From the IMG/VR virus record IMGVR_UViG_3300005915_000045, positions 1 through 40,237 of that record: a stretch of DNA of 40,237 bases. One strand, written 5' to 3'. The DNA comes from a virus. A model generated the notes under the pieces. The model did not search any database, was not told the origin of the DNA, and worked only from the letters and a program-made list of their open reading frames with translations. Below, in pieces: positions 6,362-38,865 of this stretch; within the stretch, counting starts at the first letter, position 1; each line of letters begins with the position of its first letter. The position numbers were made by a program, and so were the translations under genes.

Positions 6362-7066
6362 CTAAAGAGTTATTCCTGTGACCAAACCATCAACAATTGT
6401 GATTGTTTGTATTGGACCAGTAGGACCGGCATTGAAGCCGTTTCCGGGTCCAGTGTAACCAGTGAATCCTGTGTAACCAGTAGGACCATCAGGACCAGTG
6501 TAGCCAGTAGGGCCAGTAGGACCATCAGGACCAGTAACTGAAGAATCAGCTCCTGAGTATCCAGTGTAGCCTGTATAACCAGTAGCTCCGTCAGGACCAG
6601 TGTAGCCAGTTGCACCAGTGTCAGTAGCTGCTCCGTCAGGGCCAGTGTAGCCAGTAGGACCAGTTGGGCCGTCAGGACCAGTGGCACCAGTGTCAGTAGC
6701 TGCTCCGTCAGGACCAGTGTAGCCAGTAGGACCAGTAGCTCCATCAGCGCCAGTGTAACCAGTTGCACCAGTTACTCCAGGGCCTGTATAACCTGTATAT
6801 CCTGTATAACCAGTTGCACCAGCGGCACCTGAGCCGATTGTTGACCAAGCTGGAACAGCAACTGTACCAGTCATTTGGTAAACAGCTGAACCGTCTAAGT
6901 CTTGGAGTAAGCACTCTAACGCAAAGATATTTGCGTAAGTAGCACCGGCGTAAGGGCTTCCACCAGTTATTGTACCAAAGGTAACCAACTGATATGAGCT
7001 CTCATTACTTGGCTGTTCCTGTTGTTGAATATCAACTAAAGGAATCAGCGGATTTGTATATGCCAT
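6362..7066 (-). CDS. Collagen-like virion protein (234 aa)
   Basis: Residues 1-~80 form a non-repetitive head ([18 protein letters not shown]..., with [15 protein letters not shown]). From about 81 to 212 the chain is almost entirely Gly-X-Y triplets, mostly GYT, GPT, GPD and GAT, as in collagen triple helices. A short C-terminal cap contains [14 protein letters not shown]. Collagen-like segments in phages form trimeric fibres or whiskers. Unusually, nearly every triplet carries Thr, and GPT triplets are O-glycosylated in Bacillus BclA. A glycosyltransferase gene lies two genes upstream. The DNA is repetitive with many near-identical GGACCAGTGTAGCC-like units (plus strand), prone to recombination. 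Confidence 0.9.
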
Positions 7067-10297: not shown

Positions 10298-10555
10298 TTA
10301 TAAAAAACTTTTTTCTCCCTCTCCCTTCTCATTTGAGTCAGAGTCTAAATATGGCAATACTCTCTTCGTCACTGCCGGAGCGATTGAAGTTGCTGGGATT
10401 CCTTTATCTGGAGTTTCCACTACTGGCTCAGTTGGAGTCTCTACCACTGGCTCAGTTGGAGTCTCTACCACTGGCTCAGTTGGAGTCTCTACCACTGGCT
10501 CAGTTGGAGTTTCCTTCTTTTTACCAAACCAGTTTTTAATCTTGTCGTTAATCAT
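10298..10555 (-). CDS. Small protein with (TPTEPVVE)n repeats (85 aa)
   Basis: N-terminus MINDKIKNWFGKKK is amphipathic and basic. It is followed by four copies of the octapeptide ETPTEPVV (residues ~16-48), then a Pro/Ala segment and an acidic/basic tail. The repeat is encoded by a 24-bp tandem array and is extended and Thr/Pro-rich. No signal peptide or membrane span is visible. It lies between the endolysin and glycosyltransferase genes, 7 bp from the amidase stop. It may be a spacer or virion linker peptide and a possible O-glycosylation target. Function unknown. Confidence 0.65.
   Translation of the reverse strand: MINDKIKNWFGKKKETPTEPVVETPTEPVVETPTEPVVETPTEPVVETPDKGIPATSIAPAVTKRVLPYLDSDSNEKGEGEKSFL
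10411..10514. repeat. 24-bp tandem repeat, 4 units plus partial
   Basis: Four consecutive 24-bp units of the form GAGTCTCTACCACTGGCTC + AGTTG start at 10411, 10435, 10459 and 10483; a partial unit begins at 10507. The first differs from the other three by a few bases; the last three are identical. The period is a multiple of three, so copy-number change keeps the reading frame of the small repeat protein. Confidence 0.9.
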
Positions 10556-13760: not shown

Positions 13761-16370
13761 TTAAATGTGAACTATGTAATCGTTAGATGGATTAAAGAAT
13801 AAATCTTCTGCTGTTATTGCATAGCCGACTATTCTTATTGCAAAATTGGTTGTTGTTGGCTGGGCTACAACTATATTACCAGCTGTATCGTCAAGATAAA
13901 CAGGGGCTCCAACTGTAAAGGCTGGAAATGCCGCACTTCTAACTTTTCCATACACCAACATCTCGGTCGCAGCGTCTGCGTCTGCCGCTAATATACATAT
14001 TCCTAATTGTAGTTTGAATCCAACGTCTGTTCCGTCTAAAATTCCATCAACTAACTCCCATTTACTATCAGCTGTTTGCAGGTAACAGATATCACCTACT
14101 GCCAAAGTTGCTCCGGCAGTTCCGGTCATAGTAAGGCCAGACCATTTTTCATCGCCAGAAAGAACAGCATCGAACTTCGTGCTTAGCTCCCCTAGAGTTA
14201 TAGTGCTTGTCTGAGTTCCCCCAAGAGTAGCCGGACCAGTGTAGCCGGTGTAGCCTGTGTAGCCAGTGGCTCCGTCAGCTCCGTCTGGACCAGTGTAGCC
14301 TGTAGGACCAGTAGGACCGTCAGGGCCTGTGTAGCCTGTGAAATTACCAGCCCCTGTGTAACCTGTATAGCCAGTAGGGCCGTCAGGTCCAGTGTATCCA
14401 GTAGGACCAGTAGAACCATCTGGACCAGTATAACCTGTAAAGTTACCAGCTCCAGTATATCCAGTATAACCAGTTGGACCGATTGGACCAGTATATCCAG
14501 TTGGACCGGTAGGACCATCAGGACCAGTATAACCAGTTGGACCAGTTGGACCAGAACCTACGCTATCGTCAACATACTTCTTATTTGCAATATCAGCATC
14601 ATCAGTCGGAGCAGCGTCAGTAGCTAATTGAGAAGAATCTCCAAGTGTGGAAGCTCCTGAAGTTTCTAAAACACCATCACTAGGTGAATTAACGTAAGTG
14701 TAAACTCCACCGTTTGAATTATCTACTCCATCTGCTGCAAGAACATCATCAAATTGACTGATAACTGTTGTATCAGAGTCCTCTATTATTAAGAAATTTG
14801 CTGTTCCTGACGTACTTTCTATGTGTATATGGTTGAAAGAACTACGGAACAGTAAAGAAGAACCGTCGCTATCAAAGCTTCCTCCCGCAGCTATATGTCC
14901 TGCTGTATTATTAACTACGTGAATATCATTATATTTTGTTTCTATATCCCCATTTCCATTTATAACAGAAAAGGCACAAGTTTCAAGAGATTCATTATCA
15001 GTAACATCTATATCACATTTATCTAAAATAACAGTTCCTGTTGATGTGCTTCTTATGGCTGCAATCAATGAACTTGTTCCACTACCTGTAACAGTAAAAG
15101 TTACATCATCAATATTCCAATTACTTCCAGCTTCTACATTAACTGCTTTTTTACCTTTGCCAACTCCTCTATCAGATGTGTCTGTATAAACGATAGAACC
15201 TTCTACTATTTTATTTGTTCCTGAACCTGCATAACAAGCAGCTCCTCCAGCATCAGAGTTTGTTCCACTTATTACAGCTTCTGTATGACAGAATTTGAAA
15301 TTACAACTTCCTGTACCAGTTACGGTATTATCAATAGCATTAGCTACTGGTGTCATAACCATTTTAATATTTTCTAATACCCCACCAGTAGTTGCTCCAT
15401 AATCACATATTTGAGTAGCCTTAGTTACAAGTACAGCCTTTGGAGAACACCCCACACCTTTAACACACTGGTTATTCGCAGTTAAATTTATAGTATCGTC
15501 CGTATAAGTACCTGGATAAACTAGGAATAAAGTATCAGCAGTAGCATTATCATCTAATGCTGCTTGAATTGTTGTATAATCTCCACCGGATGTAGCAATA
15601 GTTAATGTATTTGCATAAGCATTATCAGGACCAGTGTATCCAGTATAACCAGTATATCCAGTTGAACCAATAGGACCAGTATATCCAGTAGCTCCAGTAG
15701 GACCATCAGGACCAGTATATCCAGTGTATCCAGTAATTGAAGGACCAGTATATCCAGTGTAGCCGGTTGCTCCAGTTTCAGCCGCTATTCCTTCAGGACC
15801 TGTATATCCGGTTGGACCAGTAGGTCCGTCAGGACCAGTGTAGCCGGTGAAGTTTCCTGGGCCAGTAGGTCCGGTGTAACCTGTTGGACCATCGTTTCCT
15901 ATCCATCCAGTTTCTCCAGTGTAGCCTGTAAACCCAGTGTAGCCGGTTGGGCCAGCAGGGCCAGTGTAGCCTGTAAAATTACCAGCGCCAGTGTAGCCAG
16001 TTGCTCCAGTAGGACCGATTGGGCCAGTGTAGCCGGTATAGCCAGTGGGGCCGTCAGGACCAGTATATCCAGTTGGGCCGGTTGCTCCAGTGGGGCCGGC
16101 GACTGTTGAATCAGCGCCTGACTCTCCTGTATAACCAGTTGGACCAGTAGCTCCTGCCGGGCCTGTATAACCTGTTGGACCAATTGGACCAGTTGTTTTA
16201 GTATCAACCCAGTCCGCAGTGTCTGAATCCCAAACCCATATAGAATCTGTTGAGCCCACCATAGCAAAATAGCCATCGGCTCCAACAGGATAAGCTGTTC
16301 TTAAAGCATCTGGCGTGGCGAACCACCCTAGATTCATTGGGTCCCCTATTTGATTTGCTAGGTAACTCAT
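13761..16370 (-). CDS. Collagen-like / beta-helix fibre protein (869 aa)
   Basis: The N-terminus (~1-58) is a short folded domain, [22 protein letters not shown] then [14 protein letters not shown], a common virion-attachment module. Residues ~60-275 are Gly-X-Y triplets dominated by GPT, GYT and GPD. Residues ~280-590 look like a right-handed beta-helix ([46 protein letters not shown]), as in pectate-lyase-type tailspikes. A second collagen-like block (~605-715) follows, then a globular C-terminal domain ([32 protein letters not shown]). This is a trimeric adhesive fibre. No catalytic residues of a depolymerase can be assigned by eye. Confidence 0.9.
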
Positions 16371-26780: not shown

Positions 26781-27236
26781 TTAAAAATCTAATTCCTTTT
26801 CCACATCCTGCACTTCTACAACCTCCTTCTTCACTTCCGAAGCGGTAGCATCTGCAACCGGTGCTACAACCGTTTGGTTTTCAATCTGCTGTAGGACCAC
26901 TGTGCGGAGCTTATTACCGGCTGCGGATGGGTCTTTATCTTTAGGCTGAGCATTAAATTTCGACCAAGCATTTCCAATTGCGTTCAGCGCTCCAATCAAA
27001 TCCTTATTAGAAAAGTCACTGAAACCCCTGGCCTTGAATTCGTGCATTGCTGCCAGGGCTAAATTATTAGAATCCACAGCCAAAGCAGTCATGGCATTGT
27101 GGAACCCAGGCTTGTTTTCAATATGTGATGAAACAGAATTGGCAACGTTCGGCGAGTACCCAGAGTTGAGTGCTATCTGTTTCTTAGTCTCTCCTTGACC
27201 ACCAAGAATTCTTTTAGCGTATGCCATTTGTTTCAT
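26781..27236 (-). CDS. terS: Terminase small subunit (about 151 aa)
   Basis: N-terminal helix-turn-helix (AYAKRILGGQGETKKQIALN, SGYSPNVANSVSSHIE) of the kind that recognises the packaging site. A helical middle follows (NALAAMHEFKARGFSDFSN-like, LIGALNAIGNAWSKFN), then an acidic Val/Glu-rich tail. Placement immediately before terminase large subunit fits. I prefer the ATG at 27236: it has GAGG about 8 bases upstream and leaves a ~27-nt leader. An in-frame ATG at 27263 coincides with the predicted transcription start and would be leaderless, adding nine residues. Confidence 0.82.
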   Translation of the reverse strand: MKQMAYAKRILGGQGETKKQIALNSGYSPNVANSVSSHIENKPGFHNAMTALAVDSNNLALAAMHEFKARGFSDFSNKDLIGALNAIGNAWSKFNAQPKDKDPSAAGNKLRTVVLQQIENQTVVAPVADATASEVKKEVVEVQDVEKELDF

Positions 27237-27269
27237 AGTTGAACCTCGTTGTTTTATAAACATATTCCT

Positions 27270-27298
27270 ATTATAGACGAAATCCGAAAACGTGTCAA
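27270..27298 (-). promoter_or_regulatory. Perfect sigma-70 promoter for the late (packaging) operon
   Basis: Minus strand TTGACA (27298-27293), exactly 17 bp, TATAAT (27275-27270). Both hexamers are consensus. The predicted start of transcription (~27263) lies at the edge of the terminase small subunit gene. The nearest iteron (27324-27332) lies just upstream of the -35, so an iteron-binding protein could control it. Confidence 0.9.
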
Positions 27299-27323
27299 AG
27301 CTTGGGTGCTAGATTTGTATCTC

Positions 27324-27708
27324 TAGGCATAACTCTGACATAACTATTTATAACTATTACCTAATCTTAGCGAATCAGTAGGCATAAGGTAGGCATAACA
27401 TAATACTTATGCCTTGTCAAAACGGCACTAACATTAGCCAAGAACCAGGGGGTTTAGGCATAAGGTCCCTGATTTGGAGAAAAGTTCTGTTCTACAGTAT
27501 ATAGCAATATTTAGCTATATAATATTCCAAAGAATTAGTTTTCTCTAAAATAGGGGGGTTATGCCTAAATAGGATTTGACTTGGCTAATATTAGCCCTAG
27601 AATGACCCTATTTGACAAGGCATAAGTATTATGTTATGCCTACCTTATGTCTTTCGGTGACTAATATTAGCCAAAAAAGCATAGGCATAAGAAATGGGGT
27701 TATGCCTA
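27324..27708. repeat. TAGGCATAA iterons (8 exact, 2 near-exact)
   Basis: Exact copies: 27324-27332, 27379-27387, 27390-27398, 27455-27463 and 27682-27690 in + orientation; 27559-27567, 27634-27642 and 27700-27708 as TTATGCCTA. One-mismatch copies: 27407-27415 and 27617-27625. Such clustered, mixed-orientation 9-mers are typical of initiator or regulator binding sites. Confidence 0.88.
27383..27649. repeat. Nested inverted repeat (267-bp dyad, 39-bp perfect arms)
   Basis: The arms 27383-27421 and 27611-27649 are exact reverse complements over 39 bp. Inside, around nearly the same centre (~27511), pair 27428-27442 with 27580-27594 (one mismatch), 27453-27463 with 27559-27569, 27477-27483 with 27539-27545, and at the middle TATATAGC (27498-27505) with GCTATATA (27514-27521). 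The 3' side also holds the 14-bp palindrome GGCTAATATTAGCC (27583-27596). Confidence 0.9.
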
Positions 27709-27799
27709 AAAAACCTAAAAATAAATTTTTTTAGACTTTTTTGAGTCAGTTTTTGATATCTGCTGGATGGAGGTAGGGGGAGATGTTTTAGATTTACTA

Positions 27800-27821
27800 G
27801 GGGTAGGGGGTCGGGAAGGGG
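27800..27821 (+). promoter_or_regulatory. G-quadruplex motif
   Basis: Four G-runs (4, 5, 3 and 4 G) separated by two-base loops TA, TC and AA on the plus strand, inside a wider G-rich tract starting near 27766. The short loops predict a stable quadruplex. Confidence 0.65.
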
Positions 27822-28191
27822 TAGACCCCTAGCTTCATTATAATGAAACAAAAAAAGAAGGAGTGCTACGCACAATCTATCAATGAGCCTGGAAGTCAAT
27901 CAAAAAAAATGATTGACATATATATAATGAGCCCAGACTCAAGCCTATCGGCGAGCCTTAAAAGGAAAGTCAACGAGATTTGTTTTTACATCCTTGGTAT
28001 AATTCCCCGCCCCCGCACCATAGCCCCAGCAATACCACCCCGCACCCTAGCACCTAAGCCCACGAATTGCCGACCTAGTCAAGCCCTCTAAAAATACAAG
28101 CCCACACAAGCCCCGCCACAGCACCGCAACAACAAAGCCGACCCAATACACTCACCACGAAAAGCCGTATTTAAAGGCTTTCATATAATAG

Positions 28192-28200
28192 TTATCCACA
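28192..28200 (+). promoter_or_regulatory. DnaA box (TTATCCACA)
   Basis: Exact match to the consensus bacterial DnaA box, in non-coding DNA, 10 bp upstream of the early promoter -35. It could recruit host DnaA to the origin or modulate early transcription. A single copy could arise by chance. Confidence 0.6.
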
Positions 28201-28209
28201 GCTAAAAGC

Positions 28210-28238
28210 TTGACAGGCACCGCCACATTTGATATAAT
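28210..28238 (+). promoter_or_regulatory. Perfect early promoter P1
   Basis: TTGACA (28210-28215), 17 bp, TATAAT (28233-28238), both consensus. The spacer end ATTTGA and the bases after the -10 are shared with the promoter at 33196. Transcription should start near 28245, which sets the first gene's start at 28276 rather than at an upstream in-frame ATG (28210) inside the promoter. Confidence 0.9.
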
Positions 28239-31321: not shown

Positions 31322-31495
31322 ATGAAGACTTATAAAGTATTTACCAACGAGATTCTTTACTATTGCAAGAAAGAAGTTGAGGCTAACAGTGAAGAAGAGG
31401 CAAAAAATAAATATTTTGAAATGATAGCCTTGGGAGAAGTAGAGGTCAACAAGAGCAGTTATTGTGATATCACAATAAATAATAAACTAATATAA
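31322..31495 (+). CDS. 57-aa hypothetical protein
   Basis: ATG at 31322 after AAAAATGT, TAA at 31493-31495. Reads MKTYKVFTNEILYYCKKEVE then ANSEEEAKNKYFEMIALGEV. The beta-helix pattern resembles the N-terminal half of the 73-aa zinc-ribbon protein (adjacent 'NSEEEA/NKEEAL' motifs), suggesting distant paralogy. Function unknown. Confidence 0.58.
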   Translation: MKTYKVFTNEILYYCKKEVEANSEEEAKNKYFEMIALGEVEVNKSSYCDITINNKLI

Positions 31496-33195: not shown

Positions 33196-33224
33196 TTGAC
33201 AGACAGCGACAGATTTGATATAAT
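33196..33224 (+). promoter_or_regulatory. Perfect early promoter P2
   Basis: TTGACA (33196-33201), 17 bp, TATAAT (33219-33224). Aligned with P1 over 31 positions, 27 match, including ATTTGATATAATGA. The spacer similarity beyond the hexamers suggests common descent or a shared regulator. Confidence 0.9.
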
Positions 33225-34998: not shown

Positions 34999-35046
34999 AC
35001 TAATTAAAAAATGATAGTATTACTATCAATTAAACAAAATAAACAT

Positions 35047-35721
35047 ATGGGATTAGATAACAGAATAGGTGGTAACTATATAACCATTTTAGGTGGCAAA
35101 TTTTGTCAGAGAGTACAAGAAGGAACAGAGGGCGCGATTAAAAGAACTAATAAAATCGGCAATGTCGTTTTCGAGAAATTTTACGACAGCTTCACTGGTA
35201 AATTGGTTGACATCAAAGTTCAAGAGGGCGGAGAATACGGTCCAACTTGGAATTTCATGTTTCAAGATAAAGAAGAGGTTTATACCCTTCAGTTATCTTA
35301 CTCAAACAGTTTCTCAACAGCCTTTCTGAAAATGCTACCTAACATTGACTTAACTAAGGAAATGAAAGTTTCCCCTAGTGTAAAAGAAGTGGAAGGTAAA
35401 AATAAGAGTTCACTATTCATTAACCAGGACAACAAACCTTTAAAGCATGCCTACACCAGAGAGGCTCCAAATGGTATGCCTGACATGGAGCAGATTACTA
35501 TTAAAGGTGCGTTAGTATGGGACGATACTAAGAGATTAGTGTTCTTACGAAATATGGTTGATACTACTATTATTCCTAATCTTCCAGGAGCAACTGCTAC
35601 ACCAGTCACACCGGCTACACAGCCAACTGGAGTAACTAATGTACCAGACGGCGCGTTGTCTTCTACACCTCCTCAAGCTGACGACAGCGAGGAAATCAAA
35701 GTAGACGAGGTGCCTTTTTAA
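35047..35721 (+). CDS. SSB-like single-stranded DNA-binding protein (224 aa)
   Basis: Starts MGLDNRIGGNYITILGGKFC after ATAAACATATG, the favoured leader in this genome; an in-frame ATG at 35011 would add 12 residues. A beta-rich N-terminal domain (VVFEKFYDSFTGKLVDIKVQ, WNFMFQDKEEVYTLQLSY) fits an OB-type fold. A Pro/Thr-rich linker (TATPVTPATQPTGVTNVP) and acidic tip DDSEEIKVDEVPF follow. A flexible linker ending in acidic residues plus Pro-Phe is the hallmark of SSB proteins, which recruit replication partners through it. Its position ahead of primase/helicase fits. Confidence 0.75.
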   Translation: MGLDNRIGGNYITILGGKFCQRVQEGTEGAIKRTNKIGNVVFEKFYDSFTGKLVDIKVQEGGEYGPTWNFMFQDKEEVYTLQLSYSNSFSTAFLKMLPNIDLTKEMKVSPSVKEVEGKNKSSLFINQDNKPLKHAYTREAPNGMPDMEQITIKGALVWDDTKRLVFLRNMVDTTIIPNLPGATATPVTPATQPTGVTNVPDGALSSTPPQADDSEEIKVDEVPF

Positions 35722-36474: not shown

Positions 36475-38865
36475 ATGAACAAACAATTTCTAACTTATTT
36501 TCCTAACCACGTTTACCGGTATATTGACTCAACCGGGCAAGGAAGAGCGCCTCAAGCCTCAAAGGAAATAAAAACAGAACTGAATCTCAAAGGCTATGAG
36601 AGTTATTTTACTGTTAACGGATTTGCAGGTTCTGCAGATGCTAAGAAAAATAATTGCTCTAACCTGAATGCCTTCTTTATTGATATTGATGGACGAAAAG
36701 ACCTTGAGGAGTTAGAAGATATTAAAATTAAATTTAATCCAACTTTTATAACAGAGACTCAAAATGGATTTCACCTCTATTGGCTTTTAGACGAAGTAAT
36801 TTATAAAGAAGAGTGTTCCGAGGAGGAATGGACCAAGCACATTGCCAGGTGGGAAAGAATTGAGCAGGCAATCGTAAAGGAATTTAATGCCGACCCGGTG
36901 GTCAAAGACGTTCCTCGTATTCTTCGCGTTCCTGATACTTTCTACTGGAAGAAGACCGGTGATAAGTGGAAGAGCGGAACTAAAGGAGTATTTAAAATAA
37001 AAGGCTTATATAAAAACACTTCGAATACTTACTCAATGAATGACATCGAGGATATAATTACTGTAACCGACGTGCCTGAGAAGGTGAATGATGTAACTAA
37101 ACTCACTGCCGAGAAATCTAAAAAGTTTGCTGAGGCTGAGAAAAATAACTTCTTCGAGCGAGTCAACGAAGAGTACCCAATCGAAGAGAGAGATAGTTTT
37201 CAAAAATTAATTAGCAACAATGCTGACAGTATTTATCCGTCAGTCGGTCGCAATACAACACTTCACATCACAGCCTGTCTAATGAGGCAAGCTGAATGGA
37301 CCTCCGAGAAAGCCCTTAAACATATTGGCAAGGTTGGTTGGCACGGAATGGAACTCGAGCCAGGAGGAGCCCAGGAGATTGTTAACACTATTCAGAGTGC
37401 TTTCGCCGGGAACTATACTTACTCCTATAAAAATGAGGTTATAGCCTACAATATGTCTCCGGTTGAGAACCAAAAGATACAGCAGGCCTACACTAAAGTT
37501 ATTAAGGACCGCAAAGACCAGGACAAAGTTAGGTTCTCCGCCTATGAGCGCGAGATTTTAATCAACAATCCTCACCTAAGAAAGAACGAAATCGGGATTA
37601 TCTTCCAATATGAAAAGGGAGTTTACAAAATGCTGTCTGACCAGGATATTTCTGATATGGTTTTAAATGGGCTCTACGACGATATGCTCTGGGGCTACAG
37701 AACCAAGAGAAATGTTTCAGACAAAGTAGCCTGTCTACTTTCAATCATACCGAAGTTAGTTGTCTCAGACGACGGGGGCTACATAGCTAACGTAAAAAAC
37801 GGCTTGCTTAATATTTATACTAAAGAATTATCACCTCACACTCCGGACTTTGTTTCATTGATTCAGTACCCGGTTAATTACGACCCTACTGCAAAATGTC
37901 CTACTTGGGACCAATGTATAGAAGACTGGATGTTAGGAGACGAGCAGGAAGAAAAGACTAGGTTGCTACAGCAGTTCTGTGGTTATTGCCTGTCTTCTTC
38001 AATGCTCCACGACAGAGCCTTATTTATGGTTGGAGACGGTGGAAACGGTAAGTCTACTTTTATAGATACAGTCGCAATGATAATCGGGCCGGACGCGACT
38101 TCTCACATTGACCTTGAAAGTTTGTATGGTCAGTTCGGTTTCAAAGGTTTGATAGGAAAGAGATTAAATATAATCGAGGAGGTTCACGGAAATTACTATC
38201 AGAGTAATAAGCTGAAAAAATTAGTCTCCGGTGAGCAAGTAACTATTGATATAAAATATAAAGACCAATTTAAATTCAGACCTCAAGCTAAGTTTGTCTT
38301 CGCTGTAAATATGTTACCTAGAGTTGACGATACATCTACAGCTACCGAGCGAAGAATTTGCTGTCTAATGTTTTTGAATAACTATCGTGATAATCCAAAC
38401 ATCGAACTGCGTTCAGATATTGGATTGCTAGCAAAAGAACTGCCGGGGATACTAAATTGGATGATTGAGGGGGCTATTGACTTGGCTGAAAGTAAAAAGT
38501 TTGTAGTAACTAAAGAACAGATTGCAATGCTAGATGAATACCGCGAGGAGAACTCCTCAGTTGAAGGCTTCCTATCTCAATGTATTGTTCTTAATGAGTG
38601 GAGCGATATAGAAACTCCGGCCCTTTATATTGAATATAAAAACTGGAGTGCTACTGACGGCGGAAGAAAAACTAAAGCTAATATAACTTTCACTAAAGAA
38701 GTCCGAGCCTACGGGGCAAAGGGAAATCGATTTGGATTTGAACCACGAAAGGGTGGCGGAGGAGAGTCCAGGTTCACAGGCATAGCCCTAAGTCCTCAGT
38801 GGATAAAGCAAAACGAAGTTAACGGAGGTTTAAATAATAATCCTTATCAAGATTATACTAAATAA
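36475..38865 (+). CDS. Primase-helicase: AEP-type primase + SF3 helicase (796 aa)
   Basis: Replicative primase/helicase. The N-terminal primase region has AFFIDIDGR (66-74, metal-binding DxD), GFHLYWLL (98-105) and VPRILRVPDTFYWK (146-159), the three motifs of archaeo-eukaryotic-type primases. A helical D5_N-like middle (LSIIPKLVVSDDGGYIANVK, GLLNIYTKEL) leads to an SF3 ATPase: Walker A VGDGGNGKSTF (~519-529), Walker B NIIEEVHGN (~565) and FVFAVNMLPRVDD (~606). The C-terminal domain after ~690 is DNA-binding-like. It uses the AAAAATGT start motif and is preceded by the long structured leader, which may set its level. Confidence 0.93.
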   Translation: MNKQFLTYFPNHVYRYIDSTGQGRAPQASKEIKTELNLKGYESYFTVNGFAGSADAKKNNCSNLNAFFIDIDGRKDLEELEDIKIKFNPTFITETQNGFHLYWLLDEVIYKEECSEEEWTKHIARWERIEQAIVKEFNADPVVKDVPRILRVPDTFYWKKTGDKWKSGTKGVFKIKGLYKNTSNTYSMNDIEDIITVTDVPEKVNDVTKLTAEKSKKFAEAEKNNFFERVNEEYPIEERDSFQKLISNNADSIYPSVGRNTTLHITACLMRQAEWTSEKALKHIGKVGWHGMELEPGGAQEIVNTIQSAFAGNYTYSYKNEVIAYNMSPVENQKIQQAYTKVIKDRKDQDKVRFSAYEREILINNPHLRKNEIGIIFQYEKGVYKMLSDQDISDMVLNGLYDDMLWGYRTKRNVSDKVACLLSIIPKLVVSDDGGYIANVKNGLLNIYTKELSPHTPDFVSLIQYPVNYDPTAKCPTWDQCIEDWMLGDEQEEKTRLLQQFCGYCLSSSMLHDRALFMVGDGGNGKSTFIDTVAMIIGPDATSHIDLESLYGQFGFKGLIGKRLNIIEEVHGNYYQSNKLKKLVSGEQVTIDIKYKDQFKFRPQAKFVFAVNMLPRVDDTSTATERRICCLMFLNNYRDNPNIELRSDIGLLAKELPGILNWMIEGAIDLAESKKFVVTKEQIAMLDEYREENSSVEGFLSQCIVLNEWSDIETPALYIEYKNWSATDGGRKTKANITFTKEVRAYGAKGNRFGFEPRKGGGGESRFTGIALSPQWIKQNEVNGGLNNNPYQDYTK

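Follow-up and report, generated by a model that had tools for sequence, protein, structure and literature searches.

The intergenic iteron array at positions 27324-27708 of the virus record analysed here (the window; 40,237 bp) is very probably the replication origin of the phage, and the phage's own P4-family primase-helicase probably binds its iterons by means of a C-terminal winged helix; we put the probability of this reading at roughly 0.87. Judged from sequence, the origin is best read as being of the P4/SaPI type, with a rapidly diversifying specificity. The array has a geometry that is conserved among related phages, is unique in the genome, and is built from a 9-mer that changes between phages together with the wing of the primase-helicase.

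The iteron array in the window

The array contains ten sites for the 9-mer TAGGCATAA, eight of which are exact. The exact sites are located on the plus strand at 27324-27332, 27379-27387, 27390-27398, 27455-27463 (inner left iteron) and 27682-27690, and on the minus strand at 27559-27567 (inner right iteron), 27634-27642 and 27700-27708, while the two sites with one mismatch are found at 27407-27415 (minus) and 27617-27625 (plus), as in the count of eight exact and two near-exact sites given in the initial annotation. When 27264-28210 was shuffled 500 times (order-1 Markov), no 9-mer reached more than five copies, versus the eight observed, and a scan of the remainder of the 40,237-bp window revealed no exact TAGGCATAA outside the array. 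Read along the minus strand, the pattern of the array is +9-39+8-49+95-39+8-2-46-. Five sites are placed on either side of the centre, along with degenerate ones such as AAGACATAA at 27645-27653 (minus), which a comparison of the arms identifies as the decayed mirror partner of 27379-27387. The 95 bp between the inner iterons (27464-27558) are a candidate melting region, although with 67% AT versus about 62% in the surroundings this centre is only mildly AT-rich. A second element, GGCTAATATTAGCC, forms a perfect palindrome in the divergent gap at 27583-27596 and has degenerate copies at 27429-27440 and 27660-27672.

The array is overlaid by a large dyad, in which the left arm at 27383-27421 (plus) and the right arm at 27611-27649 (minus) form a perfect inverted match of 39 nt (42 nt at 98%) with a span of 267 bp, as had been described. 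The next-longest perfect inverted repeat in the whole window, with arms at most 600 bp apart, is 15 nt, and the longest arms in the 500 shuffles of 27264-28210 reached a maximum of 15 and a mean of 9.3. The initial annotation had also listed at least four further nested arm pairs, but only two further long pairs, 27453-27483/27539-27569 and 27428-27442/27580-27594, share the centre of the dyad, and the pair at 27581/27674 has a different one. The array is no assembly artefact, since it lies within 4,237 bp over which the independent contig L003 is identical to the window. A DNA similarity search with the array among phage records gave no match.

Arrays in related phages

We collected about 130 contig loci from relatives in scans with the large terminase, the small terminase and the primase; primase scans with two extra queries added almost no new contigs. 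The initial annotation had suggested a search of related phages for the dyad, and arrays are indeed present in the syntenic position, upstream of the small-terminase-like gene (terS). Perfect dyads of up to 35-36 bp are found there, but the more consistent feature is an array of about 5-12 copies of a 9-mer in mixed orientation. The exact iterons are essentially confined to this single locus. The 9-mer is constant within one phage and differs between phages: it is TAGGCATAA in the window and AGGGCATAA, GTGACATAA, GGGACATAA, GTGGCATAA, GAGGCATAA or CAGGCAYAA in others, while still other phages contain ACGGCACAA, CCAACATAA, TCGACATAA, GGGACATAC, GGGGCAGAT, GGGGCAAAT, GTGGCAGGA, GGAGCATAA, and more.

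The features that are constant across phages are a CA core, mostly in the form RCAYAA, and the geometry of the array. In 33 arrays, the gap of convergent pairs is 8-10 bp in 36 of 95 pairs and 18-19 bp in nine more, and the gap of divergent pairs is 37-40 bp in 45 of 73. An AT-rich centre of 54-121 bp divides the array in nearly all of these 33, and its AT content is 67-91% in nearly all relatives. Within the phage family, a second box that approximates GGCTnA...TnAGCC is about 7-fold denser inside the divergent gaps than outside.

The arms do not share this constancy. Among the relatives they can fall to less than 20 bp or be lost, while the spacing of the iterons persists. This bears on the idea that the dyad acts as a structure, either as a cruciform or as a single-stranded DNA hairpin, to which the 9-mers are incidental. 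The DNA folding z, −12.7, and the 39-bp perfect arms of the window would fit such a role; however, the conserved pattern is that of the iterons and not of the arms, and we regard a structural role as the least probable of the alternatives. Extrusion of a cruciform, as proposed initially, lacks support and is not needed: iteron pairs that are placed symmetrically give rise to arms by themselves, and the relatives differ widely in the length of their arms but not in the spacing. Homogenisation of the half-arrays accounts best for the perfect arms, which would arise incidentally, as conversion, or duplication together with selection on the sites, maintains the similarity of the two halves, and not as a cruciform device.

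With the searches used here, a clear array was not recognised in several relatives (for example, G013, G032, L010, L019 and L021), and G006 contains only a weak one; perhaps the iterons in the relatives without a recognisable array have diverged further. Scans for iteron pairs, intended to supply an independent test set, returned only already-known contigs or chance palindromes without arrays. Short direct tandem repeats with a period of 12 are placed beside the arrays about 0.8 kb upstream of terS in L025/G004 and at −700 to −560 in L006, with the units GAGCATGAGCAT and GCGTGTGGTAAA. L057/L084 (G039) is a relative by its terminase (75-78%), but its sole primase match is remote (29%), and its array appears to be a mixture of GTGGCATAA and GTGACATAA, so that a swap of the initiator is possible.

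Genomic context of the array

The contig L106 matches the right end of the window with 100% identity over 3,046 bp and the left end with 99.2% over 1,346 bp. Since it joins both ends and adds 7,279 bp between them, the genome has a size of about 47.5 kb. The bridging segment (L106 3047-10325) contains an ORF with a weak match to PD-(D/E)XK-like proteins and an ORF with a WDGH domain. The tail fibre-like proteins at 13761-16370 and 6362-7066 have collagen-like GPTGYTG repeats, and a short ORF at 10298-10555 contains four PTEPVVET repeats that are encoded by near-identical tandem DNA. A scan of a collection for the bacterial host retrieved distant non-relatives only.

The array was correctly placed by the initial annotation at the switch between the transcription arms: the leftward terS gene (26781-27263, minus) starts at 27263, and the first rightward promoter-like site is at 28210. 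The terS gene, which serves as the synteny anchor, was named by its position before the large terminase; we found no family match for its product. The leftward sigma70-like promoter of terS and the late genes (TTGACA-17-TATAAT; 27270-27298, minus) is placed just beyond the edge of the array, leaving about 26 bp between the late −35 box and the outermost iteron, and has TAGCACCCAAGC upstream at 27300-27311, an element that several relatives also possess. Elements similar to TAGCACCYAAGC, at 27300-27311 in the window, also directly precede the −35 box of terS in L006, L018, L033, L039 and L054, with up to three repeats (L006, L053), and are a possible site for an activator of the late promoter. 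The rightward early sigma70-like promoter (28210-28238, plus) has TTGACA and GATTTGATATAATG in common with another rightward promoter-like site at 33196-33224. A near-perfect short palindrome with overlapping arms of 15 nt is located between early genes at 31459-31478.

A DnaA-box match, TTATCCACA, is found beside the early promoter at 28192-28200, as had been noted, but some 480 bp separate it from the array, and two further boxes are found at 2341 and 2435. The cumulative GC skew had been proposed as a check, and on the closed map of about 47.5 kb its minimum falls not elsewhere but close to the array (28226, about 0.5 kb away), which lends weak support to an origin since the skew in this part of the genome also tracks gene direction.

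The position between divergent promoters, 27298 (leftward) and 28210 (rightward), and the closeness of the outermost iteron to the late −35 box would also suit an operator hub, in which a repressor or activator of the phage acts on the 9-mers to switch early and late transcription. In L033, L054 and L072, small ORFs between the array and terS that are absent from the window look ribbon-helix-helix-like by eye, which would fit such a role. Against this, the sites occur at essentially one locus and the late promoter is outside the array, which leaves the master switch of the initial annotation without support, although the array may have such a function in a secondary capacity. The sites also lack the genome-wide scatter of dispersed repressor operators (stoperators), as all exact sites in the window are within 385 bp.

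Covariation of the iteron and the primase wing

As the 9-mer changes in concert at about ten sites, a protein that binds it is expected to co-evolve with it. Besides terS, the early-side genes common to the relatives encode the primase-helicase, a 236-amino acid protein (35011-35721) and then the helicase. The alignment of the primases revealed a loop near the C-terminus that follows the iteron. In the 19 phages with both an array and a primase, a histidine at the position corresponding to residue 762 of the window protein was present in 11 of 11 phages with GG-initial iterons and in none of the other eight (phi 1.0), in a GG/His grouping that was chosen after most of the 19 phages had been seen. 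Of 5,386 residue-by-column tests in four proteins (the primase, TerS, the early protein 35011-35721 and the helicase), no other gave a perfect association, and the next best reached 0.73.

On a primase tree from which the C-terminal domain had been left out, His762 and the GG-initial iteron each changed five times, on identical branches, and four of four strongly supported independent pairs went in the same direction. The probability that an independent trait at the fitted rates would yield the identical tip pattern is about 7e-6. An unbiased partial-Mantel scan ranked residue 762 first but gave a permutation P(max) of no better than 0.105. The other wing classes are represented by one to three phages each. 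The scan of all columns was restricted to well-populated states, because rare states gave many perfect but meaningless 2-against-2 associations; with these included there was also one 4-against-4 association, at the degenerate iteron position 7.

One prediction was recorded before the array was inspected, namely that the wing RKSGHD of G034 should correspond to GGG(A/G)CA iterons. The outcome was as predicted, with 9 of the 15 GGGRCA sites in 16 kb clustered at the position of the array. Four phages that were assembled later agree on both the histidine and GG, namely G049, G051 and G052, together with G053, in which the wing STH goes with GGA iterons. In these four, the wings RTNGHS, RTNGHN and RENNHS are paired with GGGGCAYAA, GGGGCACGA and GGGGCATAA, respectively, while RTSTHG is paired with GGAGCATAA and differs both in the loop and at iteron position 3. 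The sister pair G005/G007 has primases that are 85% identical, yet five of the eight wing residues differ, and the iterons are CAGGC and GTGAC, respectively. The remote G014 has both the iteron GTGACATAA and the EHS wing, as in G007.

None of the other shared proteins behaves in this way. The helicase has no association comparable to that of the primase. The early protein 35011-35721 is the only early protein upstream of the primase that is common to all relatives, but none of its columns follows the iteron, and the gene for the Ros/MucR-like protein is present in only 11 of 19 relatives. The initial annotation had considered early small proteins and the Ros/MucR-like protein as candidate binders; the covariation points to the P4-family primase-helicase instead. 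With iteron identity following the primase wing, we consider an operator hub unlikely, if the least so of the alternatives. A packaging site (pac/cos) bound by the adjacent small terminase seems still less likely. The array adjoins terS in the relatives, and small terminases in general bind sites close to their own gene. However, no column of TerS tracks the GG class, the best association being 0.63 and lineage-like versus 1.0 for the primase, and a symmetric array of 385 bp with an AT-rich centre suits an origin better. The initial proposal of an initiator-binding origin is thus strongly supported by the syntenic arrays and by an iteron that tracks the primase wing, and since the two change together, the protein that reads the iteron can be named from sequence alone.

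The primase-helicase and its winged-helix domain

The proposed initiator is encoded at 36475-38865 (plus). It matches the P4-family model TIGR01613 with 197.9 bits (NCBIfam cut-off 108.7), is above the cut-offs for both D5_N and DUF5906, and has a D5-like C-terminal domain (Pox_D5, 22.6 versus a cut-off of 21.4). Its only sequence relative in PDB is 7ola/7om0, which we take to be the SaPI5 primase-helicase. While the model of the full-length protein is poor (pLDDT 61), the C-terminal domain (residues 676-796; 38500-38862) was modelled as a winged helix with a pLDDT of 82.8. In this model, residue 762 (38758-38760), which covaries with the iteron, is placed in the loop joining the two wing strands, within the wing loop RKGGGGES (residues 758-765; 38746-38769). 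A Foldseek search with the modelled domain gave the DNA-binding domains of RFX5 and RFX1 as top matches (E 1e-3, 15% identity), followed by part of the African swine fever virus PrimPol. The DNA-binding domain of RFX1 reads DNA bases in the major groove mainly via its wing.

Proposed mechanism and implications

We propose that the wing loop 758-765 reads the variable 5' half of the iteron, TAG in the window phage, and that the remainder of the winged-helix domain would hold the half that is conserved in the family, mostly RCAYAA. The two half-arrays, each with about five to six sites, flank the AT-rich centre, and by analogy with SaPI Rep each may load one hexamer. One ring per half is a natural reading, because five sites are placed on each side of the centre, in addition to degenerate ones. 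The centre would be melted, and the two rings would depart in opposite directions and prime en route, resulting in bidirectional replication.

Throughout this phage family, the specificity of the origin might act as a fast-switching password, in which a few wing residues set three to four iteron bases and about ten sites switch jointly, so that co-infecting relatives or satellites could not share origins; we give this idea even odds. The repeated parallel switches, five in the GG class alone, represent a natural experiment on the joint change of specificity in an initiator and some ten sites. Origins and initiators are mostly unknown for uncultivated phages, and here synteny, geometry and covariation jointly name both, with a link between array and initiator that survived one advance prediction. 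If true, a readable wing-to-iteron code would allow origins to be found and matched to their initiators by their sequences.

Comparison with known replication systems

The closest known systems are the SaPI and PICI replicons, which share the primase-helicase family, with 7ola as the only sequence relative in PDB. SaPI Rep and Cch2 bind the origin iterons via the C-terminal domain (PMC7581432), and the same is proposed here. PICI origins always consist of two iteron sets around an AT-rich region, a layout stated to occur in no other known bacterial replicon (PMC6092414). In the array, an AT-rich centre likewise has a set of iterons on each side, and the occurrence of this layout in full-size phages, as their origin, has implications for the source of the PICI replicon. 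However, the origin belongs not to a satellite but to a complete phage with a genome of about 47.5 kb: a PICI lacks virion genes, whereas the window encodes a large terminase, tail fibre proteins and an endolysin. The SaPI origin is located directly 3' of rep, whereas the array lies beside terS, with the primase gene about 8.8 kb downstream, and is well upstream of the primase in the relatives too. The halves also differ from those of SaPI and PICI origins in that they hold convergent and divergent pairs at fixed gaps of 8-10 and 37-40 bp, and in the presence of the second box.

Cch2 of SCCmec is similarly a Primase_Cterm/D5_N helicase, with a C-terminal domain that binds AAGTG iterons in isolation (PMC7581432). 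It differs in having a separate primase and three direct iterons of 5 nt. The RFX DNA-binding domains (1dp7, 8zjr), which Foldseek ranked first for the modelled domain, use the wing to read DNA, and the wing is the part that covaries here, although RFX proteins are eukaryotic transcription factors and the likeness is in fold only.

The alpha protein of satellite phage P4, which acts with ori1/crr, is likewise a TIGR01613 P4-family primase-helicase, and it reads the iterons of its origin by its C-terminal domain. The phage described here differs from P4 in having one symmetric array and different iterons, and in being autonomous. The lambdoid origin with the O protein is also a phage origin with iterons and an AT-rich element. 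In lambda, the iterons are direct repeats within the O gene and the AT-rich part lies next to them, whereas the iterons of the present array are intergenic and of mixed orientation, with the AT-rich part at their centre.
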